Shown: positions 22,099 to 39,893 of the stretch, piece by piece
How the letters are laid out: the number at the start of each line of letters is the position of its first letter
Position numbering within the stretch: the first letter of the stretch is position 1
Source of the DNA: Paenibacillus sp. UNC451MF
Lineage (GTDB): Bacteria > Bacillota > Bacilli > Paenibacillales > NBRC-103111
Assembly (NCBI RefSeq): GCF_000686845.1
Contig: NZ_JMLS01000027.1
Span: 1-64,000 of the forward strand
DNA: 64,000 bases
Reading direction: 5' to 3'
The notes under the pieces: generated by a model
Told to the model about the DNA's origin: nothing
Seen by the model: only the letters and a program-made list of their open reading frames with translations
The model's database searches: none
Translations under genes and position numbers: made by a program

Positions 22099-22143
22099 AT
22101 TGCAGTTTGCAGCAGCTTTTCAATGGACAAAGGGGGGATGTGC

Positions 22144-23430
22144 ATGAGAATATCCGTTATTTCGGATGATTTGACAGGCGCGAGTGATTGCGGAGGTCAG
22201 CTGATCCGCTATGGCTTTGACGTCTCGGTCATTCTGGAGCCGCAAGCAGATGGCTTGCGAAGCAAGGATGCCGTCATCATCGATACGGATAGCCGATCTG
22301 TGACAGCGGAAGAAGCATACCGCAGAGTGAAGGAAGCGTGTGAATCACTTCAGTCAGAGCCGTTCGATATCATTTATAAGAAGATCGATTCTACTATGAG
22401 AGGAAACATCGGGCAAGAGATCAACGCAGTATATGATGTATTCCGCCCGGACTTTGTCATCATTGCCCCCGGCTTCCCCCAGAACGGGAGAATCGTCGAG
22501 AAAGGGATTATGTACTTGGACGGCAAGCCGCTTCATGAAACAGAAGTGGCGAGAGACCCCAAGACTCCGGTCCGTGACTCACTCATCACGCGGCTCATCC
22601 AAGAGCAAGCGGGTAGAGAAGTCGGGCTTTTGTCTCGCGACGATCTTTTGGAAACTTCTGAAGTTATGGCTAGCAAGCTGGCTGCGATGCAAGCACAAGG
22701 CATTATTTATGTGGCTGCGGATTCCACTGAACCTTCCGATCTGGAACGGCTTGTCCGGCAAATGAAACAAACCGGAAAGTCTATCATTTGGGTAGGCTCA
22801 GCGGGATTAATGAATGTACTGCCGCTCGCCTATGGCTTCGACTCGGAATCGAAGCGGGTAACAATACCAGCGCATGGAACGCCCGTCCTGCTTGTTGTGG
22901 GAAGCGTAAGCGCTATCGGCCGCAAGCAGCTGCAGAAGCTGCTTATTGAACCGGATATGGCTGGCATTGAGATTCGCTCGCAGGAAATTATCCAGAAGGG
23001 AGCTCCCAAACAAATGGAGTGGAGTCGCGTACTTCTGGAGGCGAAATCAGCAGTGAAAGCGGGTCGCCATATAGTGCTGTATTCATCTAATGAAGTGTCA
23101 CAAACACAGCAGCTGGGGCAGGAGCTAGGCTTCAGCCTCGTGGAAATCAGCAATCGAATTTCTCAGGTTCTTGGCGAGTGGGCTGTTATGCTTACAGAAC
23201 AATTTGATCTGCGTAATTTGTTCCTGACAGGTGGAGATACCGCACGCCAAGTATTTCAGCAGCTGAAGGTGGACGAATTTCATCTGTTGGATGAAGTAGA
23301 GCCGGGCATTCCTCTTGGAATTGTCCGCAAGCCAGGCAAAGACATCTACGCAGTAACCAAAGCAGGAAATTTCGGCTCACCGTCGGCTATGATCAAAGCA
23401 GCGCGTAAGCTGCAAGGAGGAGAACTATGA
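22144..23430 (+). CDS. Four-carbon acid sugar kinase (DUF1537 family)
   Basis: About 428 residues. The N-terminal domain begins RISVISDDLTGASDCGGQL and contains YKKIDSTMRGNIGQEI and FVIIAPGFPQNGR, the substrate half of DUF1537 kinases. The C-terminal half holds VLLVVGSVSAIGRKQL, NLFLTGGDTARQVFQQL and a GNFGSPSAMIKAAR ending that forms the ATP site. Characterised members (DtnK, OtnK) phosphorylate D-threonate, erythronate or related 3-oxo acids. The ATG at 22144 is chosen because AAAGGGGGG at 22129-22137 precedes it. An ATG at 22123 contains this site within it. It overlaps the next gene by ATGA. Confidence 0.87.
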   Translation: MRISVISDDLTGASDCGGQLIRYGFDVSVILEPQADGLRSKDAVIIDTDSRSVTAEEAYRRVKEACESLQSEPFDIIYKKIDSTMRGNIGQEINAVYDVFRPDFVIIAPGFPQNGRIVEKGIMYLDGKPLHETEVARDPKTPVRDSLITRLIQEQAGREVGLLSRDDLLETSEVMASKLAAMQAQGIIYVAADSTEPSDLERLVRQMKQTGKSIIWVGSAGLMNVLPLAYGFDSESKRVTIPAHGTPVLLVVGSVSAIGRKQLQKLLIEPDMAGIEIRSQEIIQKGAPKQMEWSRVLLEAKSAVKAGRHIVLYSSNEVSQTQQLGQELGFSLVEISNRISQVLGEWAVMLTEQFDLRNLFLTGGDTARQVFQQLKVDEFHLLDEVEPGIPLGIVRKPGKDIYAVTKAGNFGSPSAMIKAARKLQGGEL

Positions 23431-24434
23431 AGCCTAATATTGGAATTACGATGGGAGATGCGGCAGGCATCGGTCCTGAGGTTATTGTGAAAGCGCTTGG
23501 ACACGCATCCGTCTATGACATTTGCCGTCCGGTGGTCATCGGTGATTATGGAATTTTGCAGCGTGCCATTCAAGTTACAGGCGCGGCGGTACAGCTCAAC
23601 CGTATAGAGCAGGTTTGTCATGGGAGATATGTACACGGCACGGTCGACTGCCTTGATATGAATCTGCTGCCAGCAGATTTGCCATTCGGTGTCATGTCAC
23701 CACAAGCAGGTGACGCGGCATTCCAATATTTAAAGAAAGCAGTCGATTTGGCCAAAGAGCAGGAGATACAGGCCATATGCACTGCACCATTGAACAAGGA
23801 AGCGCTGCAAAAAGGCGGACATTTGTATCCGGGACATACCGAGATTTTAGCCGATTTGACCGGTACCGAGGACTACTCCATGATGCTTTCCTCACCTAAG
23901 CTTAAGGTCATTCATTTGACTACACATGTAGGCTTGATCAAAGCAATCGAGACGATTAACCCAGAGCGTACATATAAGGTCATCAAGCTGGCGCATGAGA
24001 CGCTGAGCCGTGCAGGATACAATAATCCGCGTATTGCAGTTTGCGGTATTAACCCGCATGCGGGAGAGAACGGACTCTTTGGCAACGGTGAGGAAGAGGA
24101 GAAGCTGATTCCGGGCATAGAGAAAGCAGCGGCTGAAGGCATTCATGTTACAGGTCCTTACCCAGCGGATACGTTGTTTTTCCGAGCTGTTCGCAAAGAT
24201 TTTGATATCGTTGTTGCTTGCTATCATGATCAAGGTCATGTTCCGATTAAGGTGCTCGGACTCGAAGAGGGCGTCAATATTACGGTCGGCTTGAAGGGTG
24301 GTATCGTACGCACTTCGGTTGATCACGGAACAGCATTTGATATTGCAGGGAAAAATATTGCCGATGAACGCAGCATGCTCGCAGCTATTCAATCCGGAGC
24401 GGATTTGGCGCCGAAAGCTGAAAAATCGCGTTAA
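23427..24434 (+). CDS. pdxA2: PdxA-family dehydrogenase, probably 4-phospho-threonate/erythronate dehydrogenase
   Basis: The 335-residue protein has PdxA motifs: ITMGDAAGIGPEVIVKAL, ICTAPLNKEALQKGGHLYPGHTEIL, the metal site CYHDQGHVPIKVLG, and ITVGLKGGIVRTSVDHGTAFDIAGK. Vitamin B6 PdxA oxidises 4-phosphohydroxy-threonine. PdxA2 paralogues, encoded next to DUF1537 kinases, oxidise and decarboxylate 4-phosphothreonate or 4-phosphoerythronate to dihydroxyacetone phosphate. The four-base overlap with the kinase gene strongly supports the catabolic role. The exact stereochemistry of the substrate cannot be read from the sequence. Confidence 0.85.
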   Translation: MKPNIGITMGDAAGIGPEVIVKALGHASVYDICRPVVIGDYGILQRAIQVTGAAVQLNRIEQVCHGRYVHGTVDCLDMNLLPADLPFGVMSPQAGDAAFQYLKKAVDLAKEQEIQAICTAPLNKEALQKGGHLYPGHTEILADLTGTEDYSMMLSSPKLKVIHLTTHVGLIKAIETINPERTYKVIKLAHETLSRAGYNNPRIAVCGINPHAGENGLFGNGEEEEKLIPGIEKAAAEGIHVTGPYPADTLFFRAVRKDFDIVVACYHDQGHVPIKVLGLEEGVNITVGLKGGIVRTSVDHGTAFDIAGKNIADERSMLAAIQSGADLAPKAEKSR

Positions 24435-24474
24435 CTAAGCAAGACTACAGACAACATGAAGGAGAGCTACCACT

Positions 24475-25425
24475 ATGAAAGTTGTATCGACATCGCCGTC
24501 CTTCGCCAAATACTCCAAGGAGCCTATTGAGTATTTGGAGAAGCACGGCATCCAATTAGTGAATCTACCTGCCGACATTACGGAAGAGGCGTTTATTGCC
24601 AGTATTCAAGATGCAGATGCCGCTATTGTTGCTTTTAACGAAATATCAGAGAAGGTTCTTGTAAATGCGCCCCGTTTGAAACTAGTTTGCAAACACGGCG
24701 TCGGTGTGGACAATATTGATCTGAAGGCTGCGAAGGATCATAAGGTATGGATTACTAATGTTCCGAATGCGAATAAGCATGCGGTGGCTGACTTTGCCTT
24801 TGCTCTAATGTTATCGCTAGCGAGACAAATTCCGCTGGCGAATGAACTGACGAAGAAGGGAGAGTGGCCTCGGATCTTCGGCTCTGATGTTTATAATAAG
24901 ACCGTTGGTATTATCGGACTAGGCAGCATCGGTAAGGAGGTCGCTAGAAGAGCGGGCGGCTTCGATATGGAAATATTAGCTTATGATCCATACCCGGACC
25001 ATACATTCGCAGAACAGCATGGAGTTTCCTTCGTATCGTTGGACGAGCTGCTAAGCCGCAGCGACTTCGTAACGCTACATATCGCCCTGACAGAAGAAAC
25101 AAAGCATTTTATTGGTGCTGATCAATTGAAGCTCATGAAAGAAAGCGCTTATTTGATCAATGCTGCCAGAGGTGGTATCGTCGAAGAGAATGCTCTGTAT
25201 GAAGCGTTGACGAAGGGAACGATTGCAGGAGCAGCATTGGATGTATTCGAGCAAGAGCCGTTGAAGGAGCATCCGTTATTCGCACTTCCTAATTTTATTT
25301 CTTTACCTCATATTGCCGGTTATACGAGTGGTGCGGTAAACACTCTCGGCATGACTTGCGTGCACAATATCGTGAAAGTCCTTATAAATGAGCAAAGACC
25401 AGATCACATCATGAACGGCTTGTAA
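24475..25425 (+). CDS. D-2-hydroxyacid dehydrogenase (phosphoglycerate dehydrogenase-like)
   Basis: The 316-residue protein has the NAD-binding Rossmann motif GIIGLGSIGKEVA. CKHGVGVDNIDLKAAK and TNVPNANKHAVADFAFALML lie before it, and the catalytic Arg-Glu-His set follows (NAARGGIVEE, LDVFEQEPL, LPHIAGYTSGA). It resembles SerA and glyoxylate/hydroxypyruvate reductases but is a short catabolic type without an ACT domain. In this operon it would interconvert a 2-hydroxy and a 2-keto acid. AAGGAGAG precedes the ATG. It lies 40 bases after the PdxA-type gene. Confidence 0.87.
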   Translation: MKVVSTSPSFAKYSKEPIEYLEKHGIQLVNLPADITEEAFIASIQDADAAIVAFNEISEKVLVNAPRLKLVCKHGVGVDNIDLKAAKDHKVWITNVPNANKHAVADFAFALMLSLARQIPLANELTKKGEWPRIFGSDVYNKTVGIIGLGSIGKEVARRAGGFDMEILAYDPYPDHTFAEQHGVSFVSLDELLSRSDFVTLHIALTEETKHFIGADQLKLMKESAYLINAARGGIVEENALYEALTKGTIAGAALDVFEQEPLKEHPLFALPNFISLPHIAGYTSGAVNTLGMTCVHNIVKVLINEQRPDHIMNGL

Positions 25426-25509
25426 TAATAAAGCGATTTCAATAAGTTGCCATGAATTCATTGAATGAATCATTTTCAACTACATCATTGAGAGACGGAG
25501 AGATATATC

Positions 25510-26793
25510 TTGCAAACTCTGACTAAGAAAACCAATGTGCGCTGGATCGTCGCCATTCTTATGTGGGCAGCAATTGCTATCAATTATATAGATAGAACAG
25601 TACTCTCGGCGGCAGCGCCGTATATTACTAAAGAATTTGGACTGAATGCAGCTCAAATGGGCGTTGTATTATCCGGCTTCTTCTGGTCCTATGCACTGCT
25701 GCAAGTTCCTTCCGGGTGGGTAGCAGACCGTATTGGACAGAAGAAAACACTCGGCTTTGCCGTTGCCTGGTGGTCGCTTTCTACAGCAGTAACCGGCCTT
25801 GCGACCGGATTCAAGTCCATTCTTGGCTTCCGCGTCGCCCTCGGCGTCGGAGAAGCTGCCGCTTATCCGAGCAATGCAGGCATTTCCTCCAAATGGTTCC
25901 CGGACAAGGAGCGGGCGACGGTAGCCGGGATATTTGACAGCGGATCCAAATTCGGTGGAGCCATCGCGATGCCGCTGATTGTTTGGCTAATTGCCAAGTT
26001 CGATTGGAAAATGACTTTTTTAATTATAGGTCTGCTCGGTATTATATGGGCGATTGTCTGGATTTTATACTTCAAGGAAACGCCAGAGGAGCATAAAGGA
26101 GTCAATGAAGCAGAGCTGAAGTACATTCGTGAAGGACAATCCAAACGAGAAGGGTTGGATACCGAACAGCCGATGAAATGGTATCAGCTGCTTAAGTACC
26201 GTAACATTTGGGCGATGTGTATCGGCTTCTTCATGATCAACTACAACTCTTACTTCTTTATTACATGGCTTCCGACTTATTTGGTTAAGGAAAGAGGCAT
26301 GAGCCTGATTGAGATGGGCTTCATGGCTTCCCTGCCGCTGTTATGTGCAATGGTTGTCGAGGTCATTGCCGGTTGGCTATCTGACCGCATCTATGCCAAA
26401 GGGCTATTATCGCTTACAGCAACGCGCAAACTGTTCCTTGTCATCGGGCTTCTAATGGCATCGTGTATAGGGTTCGCAGCATTTGCCCACTCGGCAGTAC
26501 TGGCCGTAGTGCTTCTATGTATTGCCAAGTCGGGCACGACGGTGGCCGCGTCACAAGTTTGGGCACTGCCTAGTGATGTGGCTCCGAAGAATATGACATC
26601 TGTCGTGGCAGGTATGCAGAATACAGTATCTAATATGGGCGGAGTAGTAGGTCCGATCATTACCGGATTTTTCGTTGCGACCTACGGCTCCTTTGTTCCA
26701 GCTCTACTGTTTTCAGCAGCACTGATCGTCATTGGAATTTTGAATTACTTGTTTTTGCTAGGAAAAGTGAAACCGATTAAAATTGAAAACTAA
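25510..26793 (+). CDS. MFS transporter, anion:cation symporter (galactonate/hexuronate-like)
   Basis: The 427-residue membrane protein has twelve hydrophobic segments. The family signature NYIDRTVLSAAAPYI lies in the first span, VPSGWVADRIGQKK is the MFS loop 2-3 motif, and GVGEAAAYPSNAGISSKWFPDKERATVAGIFDSGSKFGG is typical of the ACS family that takes up hexuronates, galactonate and other sugar acids. It is the last gene of the operon and the likely importer of the acid sugar. The start is TTG, with GGAGAG upstream. The stop is followed by about 110 bases without a gene. Confidence 0.85.
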   Translation: MQTLTKKTNVRWIVAILMWAAIAINYIDRTVLSAAAPYITKEFGLNAAQMGVVLSGFFWSYALLQVPSGWVADRIGQKKTLGFAVAWWSLSTAVTGLATGFKSILGFRVALGVGEAAAYPSNAGISSKWFPDKERATVAGIFDSGSKFGGAIAMPLIVWLIAKFDWKMTFLIIGLLGIIWAIVWILYFKETPEEHKGVNEAELKYIREGQSKREGLDTEQPMKWYQLLKYRNIWAMCIGFFMINYNSYFFITWLPTYLVKERGMSLIEMGFMASLPLLCAMVVEVIAGWLSDRIYAKGLLSLTATRKLFLVIGLLMASCIGFAAFAHSAVLAVVLLCIAKSGTTVAASQVWALPSDVAPKNMTSVVAGMQNTVSNMGGVVGPIITGFFVATYGSFVPALLFSAALIVIGILNYLFLLGKVKPIKIEN

Positions 26794-26954: not shown

Positions 26955-28634
26955 CTATTCATCCCTATCTTCAACGATGATGGTAACTACATTGGATCGA
27001 ACTTCACCTGAATATGCTCTTCCATCCAAATCATATTCGTAGCGTGCAACAATATAAAGCTTCAGCTGATGAAGTCGGTCGTCTTCATCCACTCTAATCG
27101 AATAAAACACAATAAAGGTATTATTAGGCTGTAATGGTCCAAGAGAGACAACCCCATTATTTATTTCAGGATGTAATGAACTTCCAATGATTCGCAGACT
27201 TCCCTCCTTGTACGTTGTTCCTTTAGGGATATATTGTGTAAAGAAAATATCCGCTGGCCAATTTCCTACATTAGCTGCAAGTACTTTGCAATCAGCTGTA
27301 TCTCCAACCTCAACAATTTGTGGTTCTACTTCGGCATGAAGCTGTATGATGGGAACCACAAGCTCTGTTGCAACAGTATTGGAAGCAGCTGCGTTTTGCA
27401 CAACGCGTCCATCCGGCAGCCGATACGTATAAAATACTTTTGTCTGATTCGTAAGGGGTGGTATGTTTGGGGTGTCTATGGATGGAATATTGACTTCAAA
27501 CGTAACCACGGCTTGAGACCCAGCTGTTATCAGCCCTAGACGAATCGGTTCCGAAGGTACTGCGCCTTTCAACTGCGCACCGTTCACGTAAATGCTGTCC
27601 CACACGAACAATGTGTAAGCAGGAATTGCAAGAGCAAGGCTGGCGTTAACGGCGTAGGTTCCGTTATTGGTTACTATGATTTGATACTTCAGCGTATCGC
27701 TAACTGTAGCACGTACGTAATTAACAGAATTCACAATGGATAAGCTTGGATCTATAACTTGGATCGTAACCGAATTGGTTTCCAAAGAATACGAATGTTC
27801 CCTAACCCTATAGGTAATAAACGCATGACTGGTCAATTGGGCGGTAGGAGGCAGCTCTATTACTTGCAGCCGAAAAGTAACATATACGGATGCCCCGGAC
27901 AACAGTGTTTCTACTGGAATACCTTGTACCGGGTCATAAGAAGGTGTAAAAATACCGTCAATAACAACACTGCCTGGTACGAATTGCGTACCTGGAGGAA
28001 GGGGCATCCGAATAAGCAGATCATGTATCGTTTCATAACCCTCATTTACAATAGTAACCCCGTAGGTGACATTATCCCCAATGAAGGTATACTCGGTGCT
28101 GGCAAGAAGGCTTGCCGATATTTGAAAAGCTTTGACAGGTATCGTAATCGTGTTAGATGTTGCTGCTCCAGCAACGATTCGCTCGTCTTCCGTAACAAAA
28201 GTATACCGCGCCTCAGCTTGATTGCTGAGCTGAAAATCGTTCGGAATCGAAACGACGATAACTTGAAAAACAACTTCAGCGGCCCCGTTGATCTTTACCG
28301 TTCCGACAGGGATGCCAGTGACAGGATCTATACCTGGAAGTGGAACGCCATTGCAGATGACGCTATTTGATATGAATGAAGTACCCACAGGCGGTGTATC
28401 GTACAGAGTAACTTGCGCATCTCTGTTTCCTTTATTCTTAATATCAATACGAAAGGCTATAGTTTGGCCTAGAGAGGCTTCCGTTTCGGCAGAAGATTTC
28501 ATTAATGTAAGAATCGGACCTAGTAAAGGGGTTACAACGGTGTTGGAATAGGCTACTTGTTCTAGCTGTCCGCTTCGAAAACGAACCAACGATTGATTTT
28601 GCAATAGAGGGTTCGGTATAGCATCGGGCGTCAT
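26955..28634 (-). CDS. C-terminal part of the split DUF11 repeat protein
   Basis: The 559-residue frame has no signal peptide. It opens in the middle of a DUF11 repeat (IPNPLLQNQSLVRFRSGQLEQVAYSNTVVTPLL), which completes the unit left unfinished by the upstream gene. Four more units follow, beginning ILTLMKSSAETEASLG, FQISASLLASTEYTFIG, LSIVNSVNYVRATVSD and IQLHAEVEPQIVEVG. These last units are much less alike than those upstream. It ends with an acidic EDRDE and no wall anchor or membrane span. Its ATG overlaps the upstream stop as ATGA, so it is read by re-initiation, by a -1 frameshift, or after a mutation split one gene. Confidence 0.8.
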   Translation of the reverse strand: MTPDAIPNPLLQNQSLVRFRSGQLEQVAYSNTVVTPLLGPILTLMKSSAETEASLGQTIAFRIDIKNKGNRDAQVTLYDTPPVGTSFISNSVICNGVPLPGIDPVTGIPVGTVKINGAAEVVFQVIVVSIPNDFQLSNQAEARYTFVTEDERIVAGAATSNTITIPVKAFQISASLLASTEYTFIGDNVTYGVTIVNEGYETIHDLLIRMPLPPGTQFVPGSVVIDGIFTPSYDPVQGIPVETLLSGASVYVTFRLQVIELPPTAQLTSHAFITYRVREHSYSLETNSVTIQVIDPSLSIVNSVNYVRATVSDTLKYQIIVTNNGTYAVNASLALAIPAYTLFVWDSIYVNGAQLKGAVPSEPIRLGLITAGSQAVVTFEVNIPSIDTPNIPPLTNQTKVFYTYRLPDGRVVQNAAASNTVATELVVPIIQLHAEVEPQIVEVGDTADCKVLAANVGNWPADIFFTQYIPKGTTYKEGSLRIIGSSLHPEINNGVVSLGPLQPNNTFIVFYSIRVDEDDRLHQLKLYIVARYEYDLDGRAYSGEVRSNVVTIIVEDRDE

Positions 28635-31600
28635 ATCGTCGTTACCTGTACTTGGAATGTAATGGTCGAGGAAGCTCCGTTAGCAATAGCGCCGATCGGG
28701 ATGCCGCTGTTCGGATTTGCAGTTGGCCTGGAAACATTATCTACAATAACGCTTCCGTTAACAAATATAGTTCCTACTGGTACAGGGTCAATCATGACGA
28801 CATTATTCACCGGTTCTATGCCGCTGTTGGTTACGACAACGGTGTAGGTAATAATGTCTCCCACAACAGCATCAATGGCGTTTGTGCTCTTAGCCACATT
28901 GACATTAGGTGCTGATACCGGAATGACCAGAACGTTGGAATTGACAGATCCTGTTAAAACTCTACCATCTGGCGGTGAATAGGAGTAATTGGCGGTTGCC
29001 TGATTCACTAATTGCTGCGGAGATGGAAGGGATTCGACGGTGACCTCCAGGGTTACCGTGACATTAACGGTTGCTCCTGCAGGAACGACACCTAATGGTA
29101 TACCGGTACTTGGATCTACCCCTGGCTGTGGTACTCCATTGATGAGTACACTGTTTGGAACAAGAGCTGTTCCAGTCGGAATAATGTCCGTAATAGTAAC
29201 ATTCGCCCCTAGATTGCCTGTATTGGTCACATTAAGCGTATATACAATCGTATCTCCCACGGTAGCATTAGTCGTGTTGGCACTTTTCGTAACAGCAATT
29301 ATTGGCTGGTATATAGGGATAATCAGCGTATTGGAGAAGGTCGTACCTGAGAATGCACCAGATGTAAAGCTGACAGAGGCTTGGTTGCTTAATTGATCAG
29401 GATTAGGAAGCGAATTGACAGTGACACTGAATGTTACGGTAACTGATGCTCCAGGCGCAATGGTATTCAGAGATATCCCTGAAGTCGGGCTTGCTGCTGG
29501 ACGAGAACTTCCGTTTACTGTAACACTTCCCGGTACGAAGCTTGAACCTACAGGTATATTATCGGTAAGAATCACGTTATTAACATTTTCAATACCGCTG
29601 TTTGTGGTGACAATGCTGTAGATGACCGTGTCACCGACAACGGCATCCGTCTGAAGCGAGCTTTTAACTACACTCACATTCGGCGCTGAGACCGAAACAA
29701 CGGTTGTATTGGAGAGGAACGTTCCGCCCGATGATCTTCCGTCAGGAAGGGTGAATGAATAGCTTCCTGATGCTTGGTTCGTTAATTGCTGGCTTGGAGG
29801 CAATGATGTAATGATGACAGAGAAGGTCACTGTAGCTGTGGTATCTATAACTCCCAATGGGATTCCTGCCGAAGGATCGGCACCTGGAATCGGTGAGCCG
29901 TTCAATAAGACACTATTAGGGACGAGAGTTGTTCCAACAGGGATGGTATCGGTCAAAGTAACCGATGCGCCATAGTTGCCTGTATTGTTCAATAGAATTG
30001 AATAAACAACGGTATCTCCTACGGTCGCATTAGTGGTGCTAGAGCTTTTGGTTGCAGTAAAGGATGGTTGATAAACCGGAGTTGTCACCGTGTTGGAGAA
30101 AGTCACAGCAGAGAATACTCCGGAAGTAAAGCTCACGGAAGATTGATTATTTAATTGGGCAGGCGTTGGCAAAAAGGCTACTGAGACATTAAAGGCAACT
30201 GTTACAAAGGCTCCCGGAGCAATCGAACCGATAGTGATTCCTGTAGCAGGATTTGCGGTAGGGCGGCTAACGCCGTCAACCGTGACAGAACCGGTTACCA
30301 GTGCGGTTCCAGCAGGAAGCGGGTCGGTGAAATTAACATTGCTAACTGTCTCAATGCCTGTATTGGTCATTATAGTTGTATAGGTAATGATATCTCCAAC
30401 GTAAGTTGCCGTTGTTAGTGTGCTCTTGACAACACTTATGTTCGGAGAGGAGACAGGAATTGTTAACGTATTGGATGCAGACGAACCCGTATGAACGACA
30501 CCGTTCGGCAGCGTGAAGGAATAAGCCGCATTTCCTTGGTTCACAAGCTGCTGCGGATTGGGTAAGCTTTCGATGATAACTGAGAACATAACAGATGTGG
30601 TCGATCCGCCAGCAACACTCCCTGCATTGATACCGGTTATCGGATCTGCTCCGGCAAGCGAGGAACCATTCACTATTACGCTGTTAGGCACAAAGGTTGT
30701 ACCAGCAGGGATTGCATCCGTTAATGTAATTTGCGCTGGATAATTTCCAGTGTTATTGACTGCAAAGGTATAAGTGACGGTATCGCCGACCGTAGCGTTG
30801 GTTGTACTTGCACTTTTCACAACATCGATGATCGCTTGATAGACGGGGGTTAGGACTGTATTCGAGAAAGTAATACCGGAAAAGGCGCCGGATGTAAATG
30901 TAACTGCGGCTTGGTTATTTAACGCTCCTGTACTTGGAATGGAATTTACTACAACGCTGAATGCAACCGTTACTGTTGAAGAAGGAGCTATTCCACCTAA
31001 GCCTATCCCTGAATTAGGATCAGCTGAGGGTGCTGGTGTGCCGTTAATGGTTACGCTGCCCGGAACGAAGCTGGCGCCCGCAGGTGTCATATCGTTTAGC
31101 AGGACGTTATTGACCAATACAATACCGCCATTATTGATTGTAACGGTATAGGTGACCGTATCTCCAAACGCGGCTGCCGTTGTTGGAGTGCTTTTGATTA
31201 CTGTTACGTTCGTAGCGGATACCTGTAAAGTGACTATGTTTGACACGGCTGAACCGTTCAAATCTCGGCCGTCAGGTGTCGTGTACGTATAAGTGCTAAA
31301 AGCTTGGTTGCTAAGCTGTTGGGGTGTAGGCAAGGAAGTAACAACAACGGCAAATGTTATGATAACATTAGCTCCTGGAGCTACTGAACCGACAAGTATA
31401 CCGGTAACAGGTGAGCTGCCTGGCTGAGGAACACCGCCGACTATGACACTGTTCGGACTAAAGGTCGTTCCTGCCGGTATTGAATCGGTTAAAGTAACGA
31501 CTGCCGGAAGGTTCCCGGAGTTATTGACATTTACGGTATAAATAACCGTATCGCCAATTGTGGCATTGCTAGTATTGGCACTCTTCGTAAGGGTAATTTG

Positions 31601-34600
31601 CGGTTGAGTGACGGGAGTATTTGTGACATTGGACGAAGAGGACCCAGAGAACGTACCGGATGTAAAGCTAACCGTCGACTGATTGTTAATCTGTGAAGGA
31701 ATCGGCATTGTAATCTTCACCTCGAATGTTACGGTAGCCGCAGCGCCTGGTGCCAGGGTACCGATTGGAATGCCGGTCGACGGATTTGCGGTTGGCCTAG
31801 ATGAGCCGTTCACAATTACGCTTCCGGTTATAAAGCTCGTATTTACAGGAATAGCATCACTGAGAATGACATTATTAACATTAGTTATTCCATTGTTTGT
31901 TACAACTGAGGTAAAGGTAAGCGTGTCGCCTGTCACAACATTAGAGACGCTGGCAGCCTTCGTGACGCTAACGTTGGGGGAGGACACGGGAATGGTTATC
32001 GTATTTGAAACAGCGGATCCGGTAATTTGTCTGGAATCCGGCAAGACATAAGAATAGGTTGAAGAAGCTTTATTAACTAGCTGTTGTGATGCGGGCATTG
32101 TATTGACAGTAACGACGAAGCTTATGCTTGTAGTAGCTCCCGGTGCAATGGAACTCACAAGAATACCAGTAACCGGACTAACTCCCGGGACCGGCGTATT
32201 ATCAACGATTACGCTATTCTCGACGAATACTGCTCCGTCCGGAATATTGTCGGTCACATTGACATTTGCGGCAATATTGCCTGTATTGCTTACTTGAATC
32301 CAGTAATTGAATGTATCTCCAACCGTTGCGTTTGACGTACTTGCGCTTTTGGTCAAAGAGATAATAGGTACATATACGGGAGTGACAACGGTGCTGGATT
32401 GGGAGGTTCCCGAAAAGGCGCCTGAGGTGAAGCCTACATTGGCTCTGTTGCTAAGTTGAGCAGGATTCACCAGAGCTATGACCTGGATTTTAAATGTTAC
32501 AGTGACAGAAGCACCGGCATTAATCGTACCGATAGAGATACCCCCGGAAGGATTCGCACCGGCTGCTGCAATTCCATTGATCGTTACACTACCTGCTACA
32601 AAGACAGCTCCGGATGGTATCGGATCCGAGACTACGACATTATTTACAGCTGAGATTCCGCTGTTTGTTATGACGATGGTATATGTTAATACGTCATTTA
32701 TAGTCGCACTGGTAAAATTTACGGATTTGGCGACGGTAACATTAGGTGAAGAAGCAGGGATGCTGACTGTATTGGAAGTACTGGAACCAGACAGACTTCT
32801 ACCGCTTGGTAATTGATATGTATAGTTGCTTGCAGCCTGATTGACAATAGTCGGTGGTGAAGGCACCGAGTTAAGAAGAACCTGGAATGTAATCGTGAAA
32901 CTTGTTCCCGGAGTTACAGTTCCCAAAGCAATGCCTGTAACAGGAGAAAATCCTGGTCTAGCCGTGCCATTAACCGTCACGCTGTTAGTAATGAACGATG
33001 TGCCTGTTGGAATATTATCCGTAACCGTAACTTGTGCTGCTATATTCCCAGTATTGTTGACAACAACCGTATAAGTAATCGTATCCCCGACTGTTGCGTT
33101 TGAGGTGTTCGCACTCTTGTTCATTCCTATGATCGGCACGTAGACAGGGGTTGTCGTACTGTTGGATAATGATATTCCAGAAAAAGTCCCCGAAGTATAC
33201 GATACGGAAGCTTGGTTGTTTAGCTGTGCAGGATTGGGCAGGGATGCAATCGTGACTTGAAATGTGACCGTTGAGGAACTACCAGCAGCAATGCTGCCCA
33301 CGGCTATTCCGCTTCCCGGGTTTGCTGTCGGTTTGGAGACACCACCAACGGTTACGCTCCCAGCTACCAAGGTTGTGCCTGAGGGGATTACGTCCGTTAA
33401 CACGACATTATTGACTAACTCGAGACCGTTATTGGAGATGACCGATGTATAGGTAAACGTGTCTCCAACTGTAGCATCCGGTATGCTGACACTCTTGACT
33501 ACACCCACACTAGGCAGTCTTACCGGGATAGTTAAAGTGTTCGATGATGCTGTCCCCGAAACAGTTCGGCCATCGGGTGGGTTGTAGGTGTAAGCTGCGA
33601 TTGCCTGATCTACAAGCTGGGGTGGAGAAGGTAAAGAATTGACTAGCACCTGGAACGTGACTGTCGACGATACCCCTGCTGCAATGGTTCCAATAGCTAC
33701 TCCTGTTACAGGATTGGCACCGCTGACAACAACTCCATTGACTCTAAAGCTGCCGGTAACAAAGGAACTACCCGATGGGATGTTATCGGTTATCGTCGTT
33801 ACAGCACCGCTATTTCCGGTATTAGCAATTTGTAATGTGTAGGTCACTATACTGCCAACTGTAGCATTAGCTGTGCTTCCACTCTTTGTTATCGAAAGGA
33901 TTGGAGAATAAACTGTGATAGGTAAAGAGTTAGAAGGAACGACTCCAGTAATGGTAGGACCGCCGGCAACGCTTTGAAAGGAGAAGGATGCATTGGCCGT
34001 GTTAACAAGCTGCTGAGGACTGGGCAGTGAGGTTACTCTAGTACGATAGGTGACGGTAATGGAACTGTTTAAGTTCACAGTGCCTAATGGAGCACCAGCT
34101 GTAATATCATAGGTAGGCTGGGCAACTCCAGCAACTGTGACGCTGCCGGTTACGAAAGTCGATCCCGTCGGTAGTACATCAGACAAAACGACGCTGGATG
34201 CATTGGCAGTACCAGTATTGTTTACAACGACCGTATAGGTAATGGTATCTCCAACTATAACGCCAGACACATTGGCACTTTTGACGAGATTGATTTTGGG
34301 AGCATTGATATCAACTTGAATGGCATTTCCATTGACTACATAAGCATCACCGGAGGTAGTCAAGCTTAGAACAGCGGATGATTGATTGTTAACGAGTCTG
34401 GCGGAGACATCCACATTGGTAATATCCCAGCCTTGTCGTCCCCCTACAATATTCGTTCCAGGAGCGCCATTCGTCTGATTGCGATTGCCGAATGTACCTG
34501 TCGTGTCCAGTTGACCGGAGTCGTTATTTATCTGTGAAGCAAAGAAGTTGGCGGCGAAGTTATTAGGTCCCGATAAGGCGACCAAAGAAGCAGAGGTAGG

Positions 34601-35344
34601 TCCGAATAATGCCTGATCCCCTGTTCGGTTTGCATCTCCTTCCTGAGCGCTGAATAAAGCCCTTCCTCCGAGAGAACCAGAAAGTGGCGTGGCAAAACCG
34701 GTTAATGTAGTTAATACAGGACCAGATGTGGCTTGAACGAGAACAGCACCCGCTCGAATGGACATATTTCGGAAGGGAAGAGTCCCGTTCTGATAAATGA
34801 CGCCGAGCGTCCAGCCTGCATGATTGGCAGTCGAGTCGCCGGTAATTACAATAGTGCCTACGACGCCTCCCGTTGTATAGGTGCCGGCACCTCCTTGTGA
34901 TATGAGAGTTGTTACGTTAGCGGAGCGAACGTAGGCGGACGCTCCGTTGCCTAGATCTACCTGATTGCTTGTCGCTGAATCCGGTGTAATGCTGAAGCTT
35001 CCCGCCGGCGTAGTCAGAGTGACGGGATTGTTGATAGCTGAAGTAAGATTTACATTGCCATTGATATAAGTTCCGCCCCAAATCAGCTCCGCATATAACA
35101 CGGTGCTCCCGGTAGGAAGCACGAGAATGGCTGAAGAATTATTGCTCTGATACGTACCTGTCGTACCGCTAGGGTAAGTTCCAAATGTGGCGGATGTGTT
35201 CGTCGTAATGAACGCGCCAATACTGTCTTGGGTACCTGGCACTCCTGAAACATCAGATCGGCTTAACCCTAATGTGTTACCGGTGAACGTAATGGCTCCG
35301 GTTGCATTGAACGTAGCACGAACAATAAGAGGAATTGATGTCAC
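28631..35344 (-). CDS. Giant DUF11 (conserved repeat domain) protein, N-terminal part
   Basis: The 2237-residue protein has a unique N-terminal domain of about 340 residues (TGNTLGLSRSDVSGVPGTQDSIGA and later ELIWGGTY). Then come 14 full DUF11 repeats of about 125 residues and most of a fifteenth. Two subtypes alternate. One has 'YSYTLPDGR..GS..SNTVTIPV'; the other has 'SVSFTSGAFSGTTFSNT..TPVYQP'. Each starts with 'V.KS..T..ATVGDT..Y...V.N.G'. No signal peptide, LPxTG motif or membrane span is present. Such proteins are assumed to be on the cell or spore surface, but export is unexplained here. GTG 35344 lies inside the strong ribosome binding site AAGGGGGTGA; an in-frame ATT at 35335 is at ideal spacing and may be the true start. 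Confidence 0.85.
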   Translation of the reverse strand: MTSIPLIVRATFNATGAITFTGNTLGLSRSDVSGVPGTQDSIGAFITTNTSATFGTYPSGTTGTYQSNNSSAILVLPTGSTVLYAELIWGGTYINGNVNLTSAINNPVTLTTPAGSFSITPDSATSNQVDLGNGASAYVRSANVTTLISQGGAGTYTTGGVVGTIVITGDSTANHAGWTLGVIYQNGTLPFRNMSIRAGAVLVQATSGPVLTTLTGFATPLSGSLGGRALFSAQEGDANRTGDQALFGPTSASLVALSGPNNFAANFFASQINNDSGQLDTTGTFGNRNQTNGAPGTNIVGGRQGWDITNVDVSARLVNNQSSAVLSLTTSGDAYVVNGNAIQVDINAPKINLVKSANVSGVIVGDTITYTVVVNNTGTANASSVVLSDVLPTGSTFVTGSVTVAGVAQPTYDITAGAPLGTVNLNSSITVTYRTRVTSLPSPQQLVNTANASFSFQSVAGGPTITGVVPSNSLPITVYSPILSITKSGSTANATVGSIVTYTLQIANTGNSGAVTTITDNIPSGSSFVTGSFRVNGVVVSGANPVTGVAIGTIAAGVSSTVTFQVLVNSLPSPPQLVDQAIAAYTYNPPDGRTVSGTASSNTLTIPVRLPSVGVVKSVSIPDATVGDTFTYTSVISNNGLELVNNVVLTDVIPSGTTLVAGSVTVGGVSKPTANPGSGIAVGSIAAGSSSTVTFQVTIASLPNPAQLNNQASVSYTSGTFSGISLSNSTTTPVYVPIIGMNKSANTSNATVGDTITYTVVVNNTGNIAAQVTVTDNIPTGTSFITNSVTVNGTARPGFSPVTGIALGTVTPGTSFTITFQVLLNSVPSPPTIVNQAASNYTYQLPSGRSLSGSSTSNTVSIPASSPNVTVAKSVNFTSATINDVLTYTIVITNSGISAVNNVVVSDPIPSGAVFVAGSVTINGIAAAGANPSGGISIGTINAGASVTVTFKIQVIALVNPAQLSNRANVGFTSGAFSGTSQSSTVVTPVYVPIISLTKSASTSNATVGDTFNYWIQVSNTGNIAANVNVTDNIPDGAVFVENSVIVDNTPVPGVSPVTGILVSSIAPGATTSISFVVTVNTMPASQQLVNKASSTYSYVLPDSRQITGSAVSNTITIPVSSPNVSVTKAASVSNVVTGDTLTFTSVVTNNGITNVNNVILSDAIPVNTSFITGSVIVNGSSRPTANPSTGIPIGTLAPGAAATVTFEVKITMPIPSQINNQSTVSFTSGTFSGSSSSNVTNTPVTQPQITLTKSANTSNATIGDTVIYTVNVNNSGNLPAVVTLTDSIPAGTTFSPNSVIVGGVPQPGSSPVTGILVGSVAPGANVIITFAVVVTSLPTPQQLSNQAFSTYTYTTPDGRDLNGSAVSNIVTLQVSATNVTVIKSTPTTAAAFGDTVTYTVTINNGGIVLVNNVLLNDMTPAGASFVPGSVTINGTPAPSADPNSGIGLGGIAPSSTVTVAFSVVVNSIPSTGALNNQAAVTFTSGAFSGITFSNTVLTPVYQAIIDVVKSASTTNATVGDTVTYTFAVNNTGNYPAQITLTDAIPAGTTFVPNSVIVNGSSLAGADPITGINAGSVAGGSTTSVMFSVIIESLPNPQQLVNQGNAAYSFTLPNGVVHTGSSASNTLTIPVSSPNISVVKSTLTTATYVGDIITYTTIMTNTGIETVSNVNFTDPLPAGTALVTGSVTVDGVSRPTANPATGITIGSIAPGAFVTVAFNVSVAFLPTPAQLNNQSSVSFTSGVFSAVTFSNTVTTPVYQPSFTATKSSSTTNATVGDTVVYSILLNNTGNYGASVTLTDTIPVGTTLVPNSVLLNGSPIPGADPSAGIPLGVIDTTATVTFSVIITSLPPSQQLTNQASGSYSFTLPDGRSSGGTFLSNTTVVSVSAPNVSVVKSSLQTDAVVGDTVIYSIVTTNSGIENVNNVILTDNIPVGSSFVPGSVTVNGSSRPAASPTSGISLNTIAPGASVTVTFSVTVNSLPNPDQLSNQASVSFTSGAFSGTTFSNTLIIPIYQPIIAVTKSANTTNATVGDTIVYTLNVTNTGNLGANVTITDIIPTGTALVPNSVLINGVPQPGVDPSTGIPLGVVPAGATVNVTVTLEVTVESLPSPQQLVNQATANYSYSPPDGRVLTGSVNSNVLVIPVSAPNVNVAKSTNAIDAVVGDIITYTVVVTNSGIEPVNNVVMIDPVPVGTIFVNGSVIVDNVSRPTANPNSGIPIGAIANGASSTITFQVQVTTI
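28700..34270 (-). repeat. Tandem array of about 375-bp DUF11-coding units
   Basis: The DNA encodes fifteen consecutive repeats (fourteen complete) in alternating A and B types, so the higher-order unit is an A+B pair of about 750 bp. The codons that encode 'NATVGDT' and 'GSVTVNG' recur in closely similar form across units, suggesting amplification by recombination. The array continues with four diverged units in the next gene. Confidence 0.8.
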
Positions 35345-35452
35345 CCCCTTACAGTAAAAGATTTGTAATGATCCCGGTACAGCTTAGCTGAAACCTTTTC
35401 TCATCTTTAAAAGCCTATGAATGTAATTTAAATTCTTGTTTGTCCTCGAAAA

Positions 35453-36085
35453 TTATTTTGGGATTTCATATTGCCGAAGGATTGCCGCGTGGGAGGGCTC
35501 CAAATAGTGACGACGGCTCAAAAGCTCCAGCTCACCCGTCGATATTGGCCTTTTGATAACGATGAGATGGTACATGATTTCTTGAGCCACATTGGCTTGA
35601 AGTGTTTTTAATACTTCAAGTTCTTCTAATTCATACAGTGGTGGGACGAAGGGTGCTTGGTAAAACAACTCCATGCGCAGCAGCCGGAAGTCATATGGAG
35701 GAGGTATTTCCGGTTTGTACAGCAGTTCTGGACATCGAGCACCTTGTGATGGCTGGAAGAAGAAAGGAGTCAAATACCGTGGGGTATATTCATCAAATTT
35801 GTGATTAAAAAGCGGGTTGGACATATGGGCAAAGTAGTGAGCATAGGGAGCTAAAATACATACGACCGCTTTGTGAATGCACAGCCTGTATATCTCTGTC
35901 ATAACCTCAACAAAATTATGAACATAAGGAAGCGAACGGCTTGCCATCACGAATTCTACCGAATCGTCGGGTAGTGGAATAGGATTGTTTATGTCACATA
36001 TCAAATCCACGCCGCTCAAAGGTCTGCGATCGATTCCCCAAAAGCCTACATGCTTGTTCGAGCCGCAACCGAGATCAATTTTCAA
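35453..36085 (-). CDS. Class I SAM-dependent methyltransferase-like protein
   Basis: The 210-residue protein begins with motif I, KIDLGCGSNKHVGFWGIDRRP. An acidic motif II region (VDLICDINNPIPLPDDSVEFVMASRSLPYV) and IYRLCIHKAVVCILAPYAHYFAH follow, all as in the Methyltransf_11-like fold. The C-terminal half (FDEYTPRYLTPFFFQPSQG and later) is probably substrate specific. TTG at 36085 is preferred because AAAGGAG (36097-36103) lies about 11 bases upstream; GTG at 36094 is too close. It lies 108 bases upstream of the giant repeat gene on the same strand and may act on that protein or on an associated glycan. Confidence 0.7.
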   Translation of the reverse strand: MKIDLGCGSNKHVGFWGIDRRPLSGVDLICDINNPIPLPDDSVEFVMASRSLPYVHNFVEVMTEIYRLCIHKAVVCILAPYAHYFAHMSNPLFNHKFDEYTPRYLTPFFFQPSQGARCPELLYKPEIPPPYDFRLLRMELFYQAPFVPPLYELEELEVLKTLQANVAQEIMYHLIVIKRPISTGELELLSRRHYLEPSHAAILRQYEIPK

Positions 36086-36337
36086 GCAGACCACTCTCCT
36101 TTCAATAGAGCTGAAGGTATTTTATTACATCTGTAACTGAAGGAGATTCAATGTACTTGATATAGTACGTTTGTACCCTCTGTCCTGCATGGATGAATGT
36201 CCTGATAGGCTTGAGCGTAAATATAATTATCCCTACCAGCCTTATACATGTTGTAATAAAATGGCTAGTAGCTTTAAAGTCTGTGTCGTATATTAATGAA
36301 AGGATACTATTCATTAACTCTGAGGAGCGATTGATAT

Positions 36338-37922: not shown

Positions 37923-39893
37923 ATGAAGCTCAGCGATCAAATTATGCTGTGGAACCACGTGTTCATTAGGATGATGGATATTCGTCACACGACGATGAAT
38001 CAAGGAGAGGAAATCCGCTCCTATAGATTGCCTGCCAGTGCTTTTCTATTTGTGGTAAAGGGACAAGCTCAGGTCCGATTGGATGGTAAAGAAGGCCAGG
38101 TGAATCGATTTCACATTCTACATTGCGGCAAAGGGCTATGTTTCGATATCGCTGCAGAAGAACAACTGGAGTACTACACAATATTATACAAAGCTGTACT
38201 TGCATTGCCATGCCGTCAAGAGCTTCAGAAGCTAATGGGGGAACAAAATCCTTTTCAAATACAATACGGTTTCACTCCGCAATTTCCTATGGATCTATAT
38301 GATAAGGTGGAAAGAATGAACCAGGTCTGGCAGCAGTCCGACTCATTGGGCAAATTGCAAGTGAAGGCGTTGTTTTATCAGTTTGTTTACGAGGTTCTAC
38401 GACAGCTGGAATATCAGGAGGTTCCTATTCTCAAGCCGGATCTGGTTGGTCAAGCCATTCGCTACATGCAGGAAAACTATAAAGAGCCGATTACTTTAGA
38501 AGCCTTAGTTGAACTGCTGGGATGTAATTCCCGGCAGCTGTTACGAGTGTTCAAAGAGCGGATGAATACCAGCCCAATCGATTATTTAATACAATTGCGC
38601 ATGAATAAAGCGAAGCAGCGGCTGCTGACTTCAGATTTTACTCTCAAGGAAATTGCTGAAAGTGTCGGCTATTCGGACAGCTACTATTTCAGCCGGATGT
38701 TCAAAAAGTATGAAGGGATTTCTCCAACTGTATTCAAAGAAAATGAGCGAATGAGGGGGACAAGTCCAAATAATCCATCCCGTGTGTCGGGATATCCTAT
38801 TGTTGAGGGCAAGCTTCGACGTTATATTGGTGATGGATATGAGAATCATTATCAGTATAAAAGAGAGGGCGACTTACCTATGTTTAGAAAGTCCACGACA
38901 TCCATGCTGGCAACCTTATTATTTTGCATTACATTATTGTTAAGCGCTTGTGCGAATGGGCCGGCACAATCCAGCAATGGAGGGATCGAAACGAGCGGCA
39001 AACCGGTGGCATCAACTCCTCAAGTATCTCCATCGCCTGAAGTCGATGCGCCTAGAGTCATTAAGCATGCTATGGGTGAAGTCACATTAACAGGTACACC
39101 CAAGCGCGTTGTTATTCTTACGAATGAAGGAACCGAGGCTTTACTTGCTCTGGGGGTTAAGCCTATAGGGGCTGTGAAATCCTGGATTGGAGATCCATGG
39201 TATAACCATATTAAAGACGAAATGAAGGATGTTACGGTCGTTGGTGACGAGATGCAGCCGAATATCGAAATGATCGCAACTCTCAAACCAGATCTTATAA
39301 TCGGGAATAAAGTTAGGCAGGAAAAAGTATACGAGCAGCTGAAAAAAATTGCACCGACCGTGTTCTCGGAAGATTTGGGCGGAGATTGGAAAGCAAATTT
39401 CAAGCTGTATATGGAAGCCGTCAATAAAAAAGATGAAGGCAGTAAGTCTCTGGCTGCTTTTGATAAGCGCGTAAATGAAGTGAAGGCTAAGCTCGGGAAC
39501 AAAGCGGCTACCAAAATATCTGTCGTTCGTTTTTCTGCCTCTCAAGTGCGTATTTATCAGAAAGAGACCTTCTCAGGTGTGCTGTTAAACCAATTGGGCT
39601 TCTCCCGTCCAGCTTCACAGGATAAGAATGGCAATATCGAGGTTATGACCAAAGAGAAGCTTCCGGATATGGATGGGGACGTAATGTTCTATTTTGTTAC
39701 TGAGACGGCAGGCAAAAGCGATGCAAGCAAGGTAGTACAAGAATGGATGAACGAGCCCTTGTTCAAAAATTTGAACGTGTCCAAGAACAACAAGATTAAA
39801 CAGGTCGATGAAGCGATTTGGAACTCTGCTGGCGGTTATGAAGCAGCTAATTTACTGTTGGATGAGCTTGTTACTTATTTTGATGTGAAATAG
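37923..39893 (+). CDS. AraC-type regulator fused to an iron-siderophore binding lipoprotein
   Basis: The 656-residue frame has two parts. Residues 1-290 form an AraC regulator with an N-terminal cupin-like sensor and a double helix-turn-helix (ITLEALVELLGCNSRQLLRV, LKEIAESVGYSDSYYFSRMFKKYEGISP). From Met320 comes a lipoprotein signal peptide with lipobox LLSAC (Cys343), then a FhuD/FecB-type class III binding protein (PKRVVILTNEGTEALLALGVKPIGA, LKPDLIIGNKVRQEKVYEQL). AraC-binding protein fusions such as Btr of Bacillus sense siderophores, but without an internal signal peptide. Here the chain could span the membrane, or the lipoprotein could start separately at ATG 38880, which has GAGAGGG about a dozen bases upstream. 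The Fur box fits an iron uptake role. Confidence 0.82.
   Translation: MKLSDQIMLWNHVFIRMMDIRHTTMNQGEEIRSYRLPASAFLFVVKGQAQVRLDGKEGQVNRFHILHCGKGLCFDIAAEEQLEYYTILYKAVLALPCRQELQKLMGEQNPFQIQYGFTPQFPMDLYDKVERMNQVWQQSDSLGKLQVKALFYQFVYEVLRQLEYQEVPILKPDLVGQAIRYMQENYKEPITLEALVELLGCNSRQLLRVFKERMNTSPIDYLIQLRMNKAKQRLLTSDFTLKEIAESVGYSDSYYFSRMFKKYEGISPTVFKENERMRGTSPNNPSRVSGYPIVEGKLRRYIGDGYENHYQYKREGDLPMFRKSTTSMLATLLFCITLLLSACANGPAQSSNGGIETSGKPVASTPQVSPSPEVDAPRVIKHAMGEVTLTGTPKRVVILTNEGTEALLALGVKPIGAVKSWIGDPWYNHIKDEMKDVTVVGDEMQPNIEMIATLKPDLIIGNKVRQEKVYEQLKKIAPTVFSEDLGGDWKANFKLYMEAVNKKDEGSKSLAAFDKRVNEVKAKLGNKAATKISVVRFSASQVRIYQKETFSGVLLNQLGFSRPASQDKNGNIEVMTKEKLPDMDGDVMFYFVTETAGKSDASKVVQEWMNEPLFKNLNVSKNNKIKQVDEAIWNSAGGYEAANLLLDELVTYFDVK

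Follow-up and report, generated by a model that had tools for sequence, protein, structure and literature searches.

A DUF11 gene pair divided inside a repeat

The window analysed here, a stretch of 64,000 nucleotides from Paenibacillus sp. UNC451MF (contig NZ_JMLS01000027.1), carries two consecutive reverse-strand frames, ORF-A and ORF-B, that encode a long array of DUF11 repeats (Table 1). PF01345/TIGR01451 matches cover 15 stretches in A and two to three in B, and by a repeat profile the junction falls within the fifteenth of 19 repeats, so that A holds 14 whole units and B four. As the initial annotation described, the 2237-aa frame breaks off in the middle of repeat 15, the 559-aa frame resumes with the remainder, and stop and start overlap as ATGA. 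The missing second half is indeed present at the beginning of ORF-B, although it is longer than the second half of other units, with about five extra residues at the junction. That earlier reading did not place the break within the domain, between Lys/Asp and Asn, and mentioned neither the candidate start inside repeat 7 nor the predicted non-AUG initiation of ORF-A.

Exactly 19 units were recovered by the repeat profile in all 102 complete orthologs: units 1–14 in A, unit 15 split, and 16–19 in B. A fixed number of units is unusual for a repeat protein. Compared with its orthologs from other species, a unit shows an identity of 0.42–0.86 per half unit, generally more than neighbouring units show to each other. 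Since units are closer to their orthologs than to their neighbours, the inner repeats are not homogenised, and we abandoned the earlier proposal that they are; the divergence of the last four units, claimed alongside it, was borne out.

Table 1. Features of the divided DUF11 locus (window coordinates)
Feature	Position	Strand	Description or basis
Possible sigma-K-like promoter, AACA-N17-CATAGGCTT	35411..35440	-	consensus match only
Shine-Dalgarno sequence of A-long, AAGGGGGTGA	35341..35350	-	contains the called GTG 35344; SD comparison
ORF-A frame as called	GTG 35344 to TGA 28633-28631	-	2237 aa; C-terminus ...STITFQVQVTTI
A-long (predicted)	28631..35335	-	predicted start ATT 35335; 2234 aa; N-terminal domain, repeats 1-14, strands A-E of repeat 15
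N-terminal domain	34304..35335	-	344 aa; 80-85% identity to genomes of family f10
DUF11/CLIPPER repeats 1-14	28916..34300	-	domain matches and repeat profile
Repeat 7	31610..31978	-	carries the putative internal start
Internal Shine-Dalgarno sequence, GAGGTGA	31717..31723	-	codon use in orthologs
A-short (predicted)	28631..31708	-	in-frame ATG 31708; 1025 aa; last strands of repeat 7, repeats 8-14, first part of 15
Repeat 15a, catcher half	28634..28909	-	Lys codon 28889-28891; Asp codon 28787-28789
SD-like sequence 5' of ORF-B, ACAGGTAAC	28641..28649	-	duplex ΔG versus other repeats
ATGA, ORF-A stop TGA overlapping ORF-B start ATG	28631..28634	-	window and ortholog junctions
ORF-B	26955..28634	-	ATG start 28634; 559 aa; MTPDAIPNPLLQNQSLVRF...SNTVVTPLL
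Repeat 15b, tag half	28521..28634	-	free N-terminus, beta hairpin; reactive-Asn candidate N13 (codon 28596-28598)
Repeats 16-19	26973..28517	-	triad kept in 16, mostly lost in 17-19

The split is conserved across genera

Among 59 relatives searched, seven genomes share this arrangement; their ORF-B identities are 36–66%, and all eight junctions, that of the window included, read ATGA. Across the order, 117 of 392 genomes contain an ORF-B-like match with an E value of 1e-60 or better. One hundred loci were taken first, and 92 of these lie outside two sister genera, g8 and g43, and have an ORF-A readable to the junction; no filter was placed on the overlap, and all 92 have the exact ATGA. Together with genome G378 and 13 loci from a further batch, the total outside g8 and g43 comes to 106/106, drawn from 12 genera in two GTDB families. 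As the orthologs are related, the counts do not represent independent events; what can safely be said is that the junction is conserved in 12 genera whose ORF-B identity falls as low as 30%. Scanning the named genomes with the window protein gave no match, and the alignment of eight sequences was too diverse to serve as a query; with a closer alignment as the query, the named records that matched belong to Paenibacillus species and include 25 named Paenibacillus loci. Outside the order, no ORF-B was found in 398 genomes of the class.

A recent frameshift mutation or a sequencing or assembly error, for which nothing speaks beyond the single genome in which the split was first seen, has a negligible chance of being the explanation, because the junction recurs in 106 genomes from 12 genera, including several closed chromosomes. 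The split is a conserved gene structure, neither error nor mutation. The initial annotation had left a choice between termination–reinitiation and a broken gene, and had proposed the junction in related strains as a check; with ATGA constant in all genomes outside g8 and g43, the broken gene drops out and termination–reinitiation is favoured.

An uninterrupted frame in relatives, which that annotation would have read as a sign of recent mutation or error, was found solely in sister genus g8, whose single continuous frames of 3952–4006 aa hold 28 units. In the three g43 genomes the last unit is split at the same place, without an ATG and with C_CCC_CCC in phase. The two genera group together in a clade separate from every ATGA genome (support 1.0, midpoint rooting), and the junction place is continuous, slippery or ATGA depending on lineage.

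Translation of ORF-B

Throughout the ATGA clade, the last 60 nt before the junction contain no canonical slippery heptamer that would explain it (CCCGGGA, found in four genomes of one genus, is unrelated), which agrees with the earlier remark that there is no obvious slippery run. The RNA fold at the junction is unremarkable (z −0.2), and Rfam gave no match there. The SD-like sequence preceding ORF-B has a mean duplex ΔG of −9.05 among orthologs, compared to −4.6 at the equivalent position in other repeats; it contains AGG in 97/102 orthologs and is stronger than the corresponding sequence of most other units, unit 7 being the exception. With the slippery site absent and a Shine-Dalgarno sequence at the stop/start, we infer that termination–reinitiation is the best-supported route to chain B. 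Stop/start overlap and a nearby Shine-Dalgarno sequence are shared with translationally coupled pairs (GeneTack class TC, PMC3711429); however, coupled genes usually encode whole proteins, while the Paenibacillus junction falls inside a domain.

A programmed −1 ribosomal frameshift, which would yield one fusion of 2800 residues, has in its favour that a −1 shift suffices, and that in g43 the C_CCC_CCC run stands in the right phase where no ATG is present, and shifting there gives back a unit of the usual length. In the ATGA clade, against this, the positions of ATG and TGA are invariant and the junction carries an extra linker of variable length. We consider programmed frameshifting very improbable overall, and rejected it for the ATGA clade, where slippery site, RNA fold and Rfam match are all absent. 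Given the slippery run in g43, both a fused protein and two separate chains may be functional.

ORF-A is very probably initiated at a non-AUG codon

The GTG called as the start of ORF-A lies inside an extended Shine-Dalgarno sequence, has none of its own and is replaced in several orthologs, and we rejected it as the start codon. The Shine-Dalgarno sequence reads AAGGAGGTGA in most orthologs and AAGGGGGTGA in the window. The codon 9 nt past the GTG is ATT in 88, ATA in nine, ATC in three and TTG in one of 101 orthologs and never ATG; in the sister genera the homologous codon is ATG. Mean Shine-Dalgarno ΔG is −17.1 before this non-AUG codon, compared to −2.0 before the called GTG. In genomes G160 and G378 an in-frame TGA lies within the Shine-Dalgarno sequence, which rules out the GTG as the start there. 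The true start is very probably ATT 35335.

Conserved AUU or AUA starts behind a long Shine-Dalgarno sequence are also found in infC and in S. aureus cvfC1 and ccpN (PMC13009471); these encode regulators or enzymes, whereas ORF-A encodes a giant structural protein. Because non-canonical starts with an extended Shine-Dalgarno sequence give about 10% of AUG output in S. aureus (PMC13009471), the full-length product, A-long, is predicted to be scarce. The possible sigma-K-like promoter further upstream departs from the consensus mACm-N16-CATA-N3-TA in spacing and last bases; the motif is present in about two thirds of genera g1, g31 and g35 and in hardly any genomes of other genera.

Repeat 15 as a putative natural split isopeptide domain

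DUF11 has been renamed CLIPPER, and the crystal structure 9IFR shows an autocatalytic Lys–Asn isopeptide bond whose formation Asp assists (PMC12617251). Of the split unit, chain A carries the Lys and the catalytic Asp and chain B the Asn; all three are kept in 102/102 orthologs. The last, or tag, half contains two invariant Asn residues, N13 and N31, both within ORF-B; as the residues align, the division of Lys/Asp and Asn between the chains holds whichever of the two reacts. Among the orthologs no first half of any unit is as well conserved as the first, or catcher, half of unit 15 (15a). At the split, the loop takes seven different lengths between 10 and 23 residues, compared to 10 (rarely 11–12) in other units of A and 8–9 in unit 7; such variation is as expected of two free chain ends. 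Asn is well kept also where Lys or Asp has been lost (in unit 18, Asn in 91/102 and Lys in 49), and may have a structural role.

In single-chain AlphaFold models, the end of ORF-A folds as strands A–E of unit 15 with the last strands absent (pLDDT 92), while ORF-B begins with a disordered decapeptide followed by a beta hairpin (pLDDT 59–65), the remainder lying mostly at 85–95. The model of unit 14 aligns with 9IFR at Z 12.0 and an rmsd of 2.4 Å over 114 residues; integrin and TRAP Ig-like domains score as high against it, and the fold alone does not therefore prove CLIPPER membership. A profile of the units detected 9IFR among PDB sequences at an E value of 5e-5, with Lys and Asp aligned and the placement of Asn unsure by about three residues; phmmer with one unit against the PDB gave only matches at chance level.

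The Paenibacillus units share repeat family (PF01345, TIGR01451), fold and Lys-Asp-Asn residues with DUF11/CLIPPER; known domains lie within one chain, whereas in this locus two gene products each encode part of a single unit. We infer that repeat 15 is an isopeptide domain split by nature into a tag and a catcher. Engineered split isopeptide domains consist of one beta-sandwich cut in two, with Lys carried by one chain and Asn/Asp by the other (PMC5487036). SpyTag/SpyCatcher, isopeptag/pilin-C and SnoopTag are alike in this separation of the reactive residues of one domain; they are engineered, while the Paenibacillus split would be natural, of a CnaA-like CLIPPER type and part of the gene structure. 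Our literature search turned up no description of an isopeptide domain that is split in nature.

A candidate internal start in repeat 7

Repeat 7 is the sole outlier among the control units in the Shine-Dalgarno scan. Its loop homologous to the start of ORF-B carries an in-frame start codon (ATG in 101/102 orthologs, GTG in one) behind GAGGTGA, the gap being 8 nt in nearly all cases. The two codons that make up this sequence are GAG in 102/102 and GTG in 101/102, compared to 54% and 22% gene-wide; in genome G004 the Val is replaced by Glu, yet the Shine-Dalgarno sequence is kept as GAGGAGA. When all in-frame ATG, GTG and TTG codons of ORF-A were scanned, the repeat-7 site had a Shine-Dalgarno sequence in 100/102 orthologs and the next best site in the repeats in 18/102. 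Initiation here is predicted to give a third product, A-short, with a tag at its N-terminus and a catcher at its C-terminus.

Internal Shine-Dalgarno-like sequences have been proposed to act as pause sites, and the repeat-7 motif could be one that serves co-translational folding, in which case only two chains would be made. A start codon is unnecessary for pausing, however, and here one is maintained at the ORF-B-type loop at near-constant distance from GAGGTGA, while G004 alters the amino acid and retains the Shine-Dalgarno sequence; we hold a mere pause site to be unlikely. The tag half of repeat 7 is the best-conserved last half of all units, and the repeat keeps its Asn in 102/102 orthologs and Lys and Asp together in 58/102. 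Use of this tag in trans would fit the conservation pattern, which is correlative and involves comparisons chosen after the data had been seen.

Proposed assembly and function

We propose that ribosomes would end ORF-A at the TGA and restart at the overlapping ATG, aided by the upstream Shine-Dalgarno sequence, releasing a separate chain B. Chain A would end past strand E with Lys and Asp in place, and chain B would supply the last strands and the Asn. The N-terminal hairpin of B would complete the unfinished domain of A, and a Lys–Asn isopeptide bond would form spontaneously and join the chains. We consider it probable, from residue conservation and domain architecture, that the reinitiated chain B rejoins chain A through such a covalently closed split CLIPPER domain.

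The same translation evidence would be expected if reinitiation yielded two chains whose halves pack non-covalently by strand complementation, or if chain B worked alone, and the Asn could serve folding, as its retention in unit 18 suggests. Against this stand the triad kept across the two chains in every ortholog, the conservation of 15a and, if the halves stay apart, the exposed edge left on an unfinished sandwich. We judge this outcome rather unlikely.

Building on the covalent junction, a more tentative proposal, which we find possible but would not bet on, is that one mRNA encodes a self-assembling covalent fibre kit. A-long, rare and initiated at AUU, would provide a head domain and a C-terminal catcher; A-short, initiated at the internal AUG, would be an elongator whose N-terminal tag and C-terminal catcher allow head-to-tail polymerisation; B, having a tag only, would be a terminal cap or anchor. 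The best-conserved halves are the tag of repeat 7 and the catcher of repeat 15, and repeat 7 often loses Lys/Asp and never Asn. Doubt rises from reinitiation through the non-AUG start, the internal start, reassembly and the interchain bond to polymerisation.

The protein would most likely function as a long fibre or adhesin locked by covalent bonds. No signal peptide was evident on any product by inspection. Spores of other Firmicutes contain DUF11 proteins (PMC5749712), and this, the sigma-K-like motif in part of the clade and the apparent absence of a signal peptide together make mother-cell assembly on the spore surface a plausible guess. Among spore-related proteins, DUF11 repeats are shared by the Crd proteins of B. 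cereus and the appendage proteins of C. taeniosporum (PMC5749712), compared by description only; that account mentions neither a split nor an internal start. Sporesilk, the auto-crosslinking spore fibres as cited in PMC12617251, has a natural, self-made intermolecular isopeptide bond of the sort only predicted for the Paenibacillus protein; its fold, as given there, is an alpha-helical hairpin, while that of the Paenibacillus protein is a divided beta-sandwich.

For annotation, the locus suggests that gene finders misplace the start of an AUU-initiated gene and that a split resembling a frameshift error can be functional. Tag/catcher glue is a major engineering tool and is regarded as man-made; a natural, conserved version would show how evolution uses it, and the more than 100 natural variants would be new candidate tag/catcher pairs. 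Should the fibre kit prove true, the ratios of three translation starts would set fibre length without a sortase or other enzyme.

Genomic neighbourhood and domain relatives of ORF-A

The position of the small methyltransferase-like gene next to ORF-A, the giant DUF11/CLIPPER repeat frame, is conserved in about half of the orthologs (53/102), and the gene is found beside ORF-A in most genera, with the exception of g35 and g42. Elsewhere in the window, the row of four consecutive plus-strand genes looks like a sugar-acid catabolic operon, and the AraC-type fusion protein resembles Btr. The N-terminal domain of ORF-A is shared (55–67% identity) by a second giant protein encoded in some Paenibacillus genomes, with frames of 1206–2570 aa. 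Another family of the class has four to five adjacent copies of this domain in frames of 550–711 aa.

Locations of genes in the window and of N-terminal domain relatives
Feature	Location	Strand	Remark
D-threonate type kinase, PdxA-like, 2-hydroxyacid dehydrogenase, MFS transporter	window 22123-26793	+	consecutive
Methyltransferase-like, small	window 35453-36094	-	immediately 5' of ORF-A
AraC-type regulator fused to iron-siderophore binding domain	window 37923-39893	+	adjoins alpha-L-fucosidase-like gene
Second giant protein	G141:C8; G143:C1:4228098; G144:C33; G146:C1:5211604; G147:C1:5114241
Adjacent-copy family	G635:C23:92264-99325; G651:C4:90517-99319

Variation of the giant frames among relatives

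In a few genomes stops or frame changes break ORF-A while the downstream ORF-B remains open (L135/G349, L088/G077, L128/G151, L146/G323); these interruptions are probably decay or assembly errors. The single-frame relatives with 28 units (L106, L107, L126; G019, G099, G098) carry in repeat 10 a GTG behind a strong Shine-Dalgarno sequence (dG -14.1), in the loop equivalent to that of the predicted repeat 7 start. This GTG is perhaps a second instance of an internal start. In genus g43 (L122-L124, L142-L144; G285, G242, G350), a giant frame of 2884 aa and a 702-aa frame overlap by approximately 28 nt at the place homologous to the ORF-A/ORF-B junction. The overlap lacks an ATG and contains C_CCC_CCC in phase, making it a candidate for programmed -1 frameshifting.
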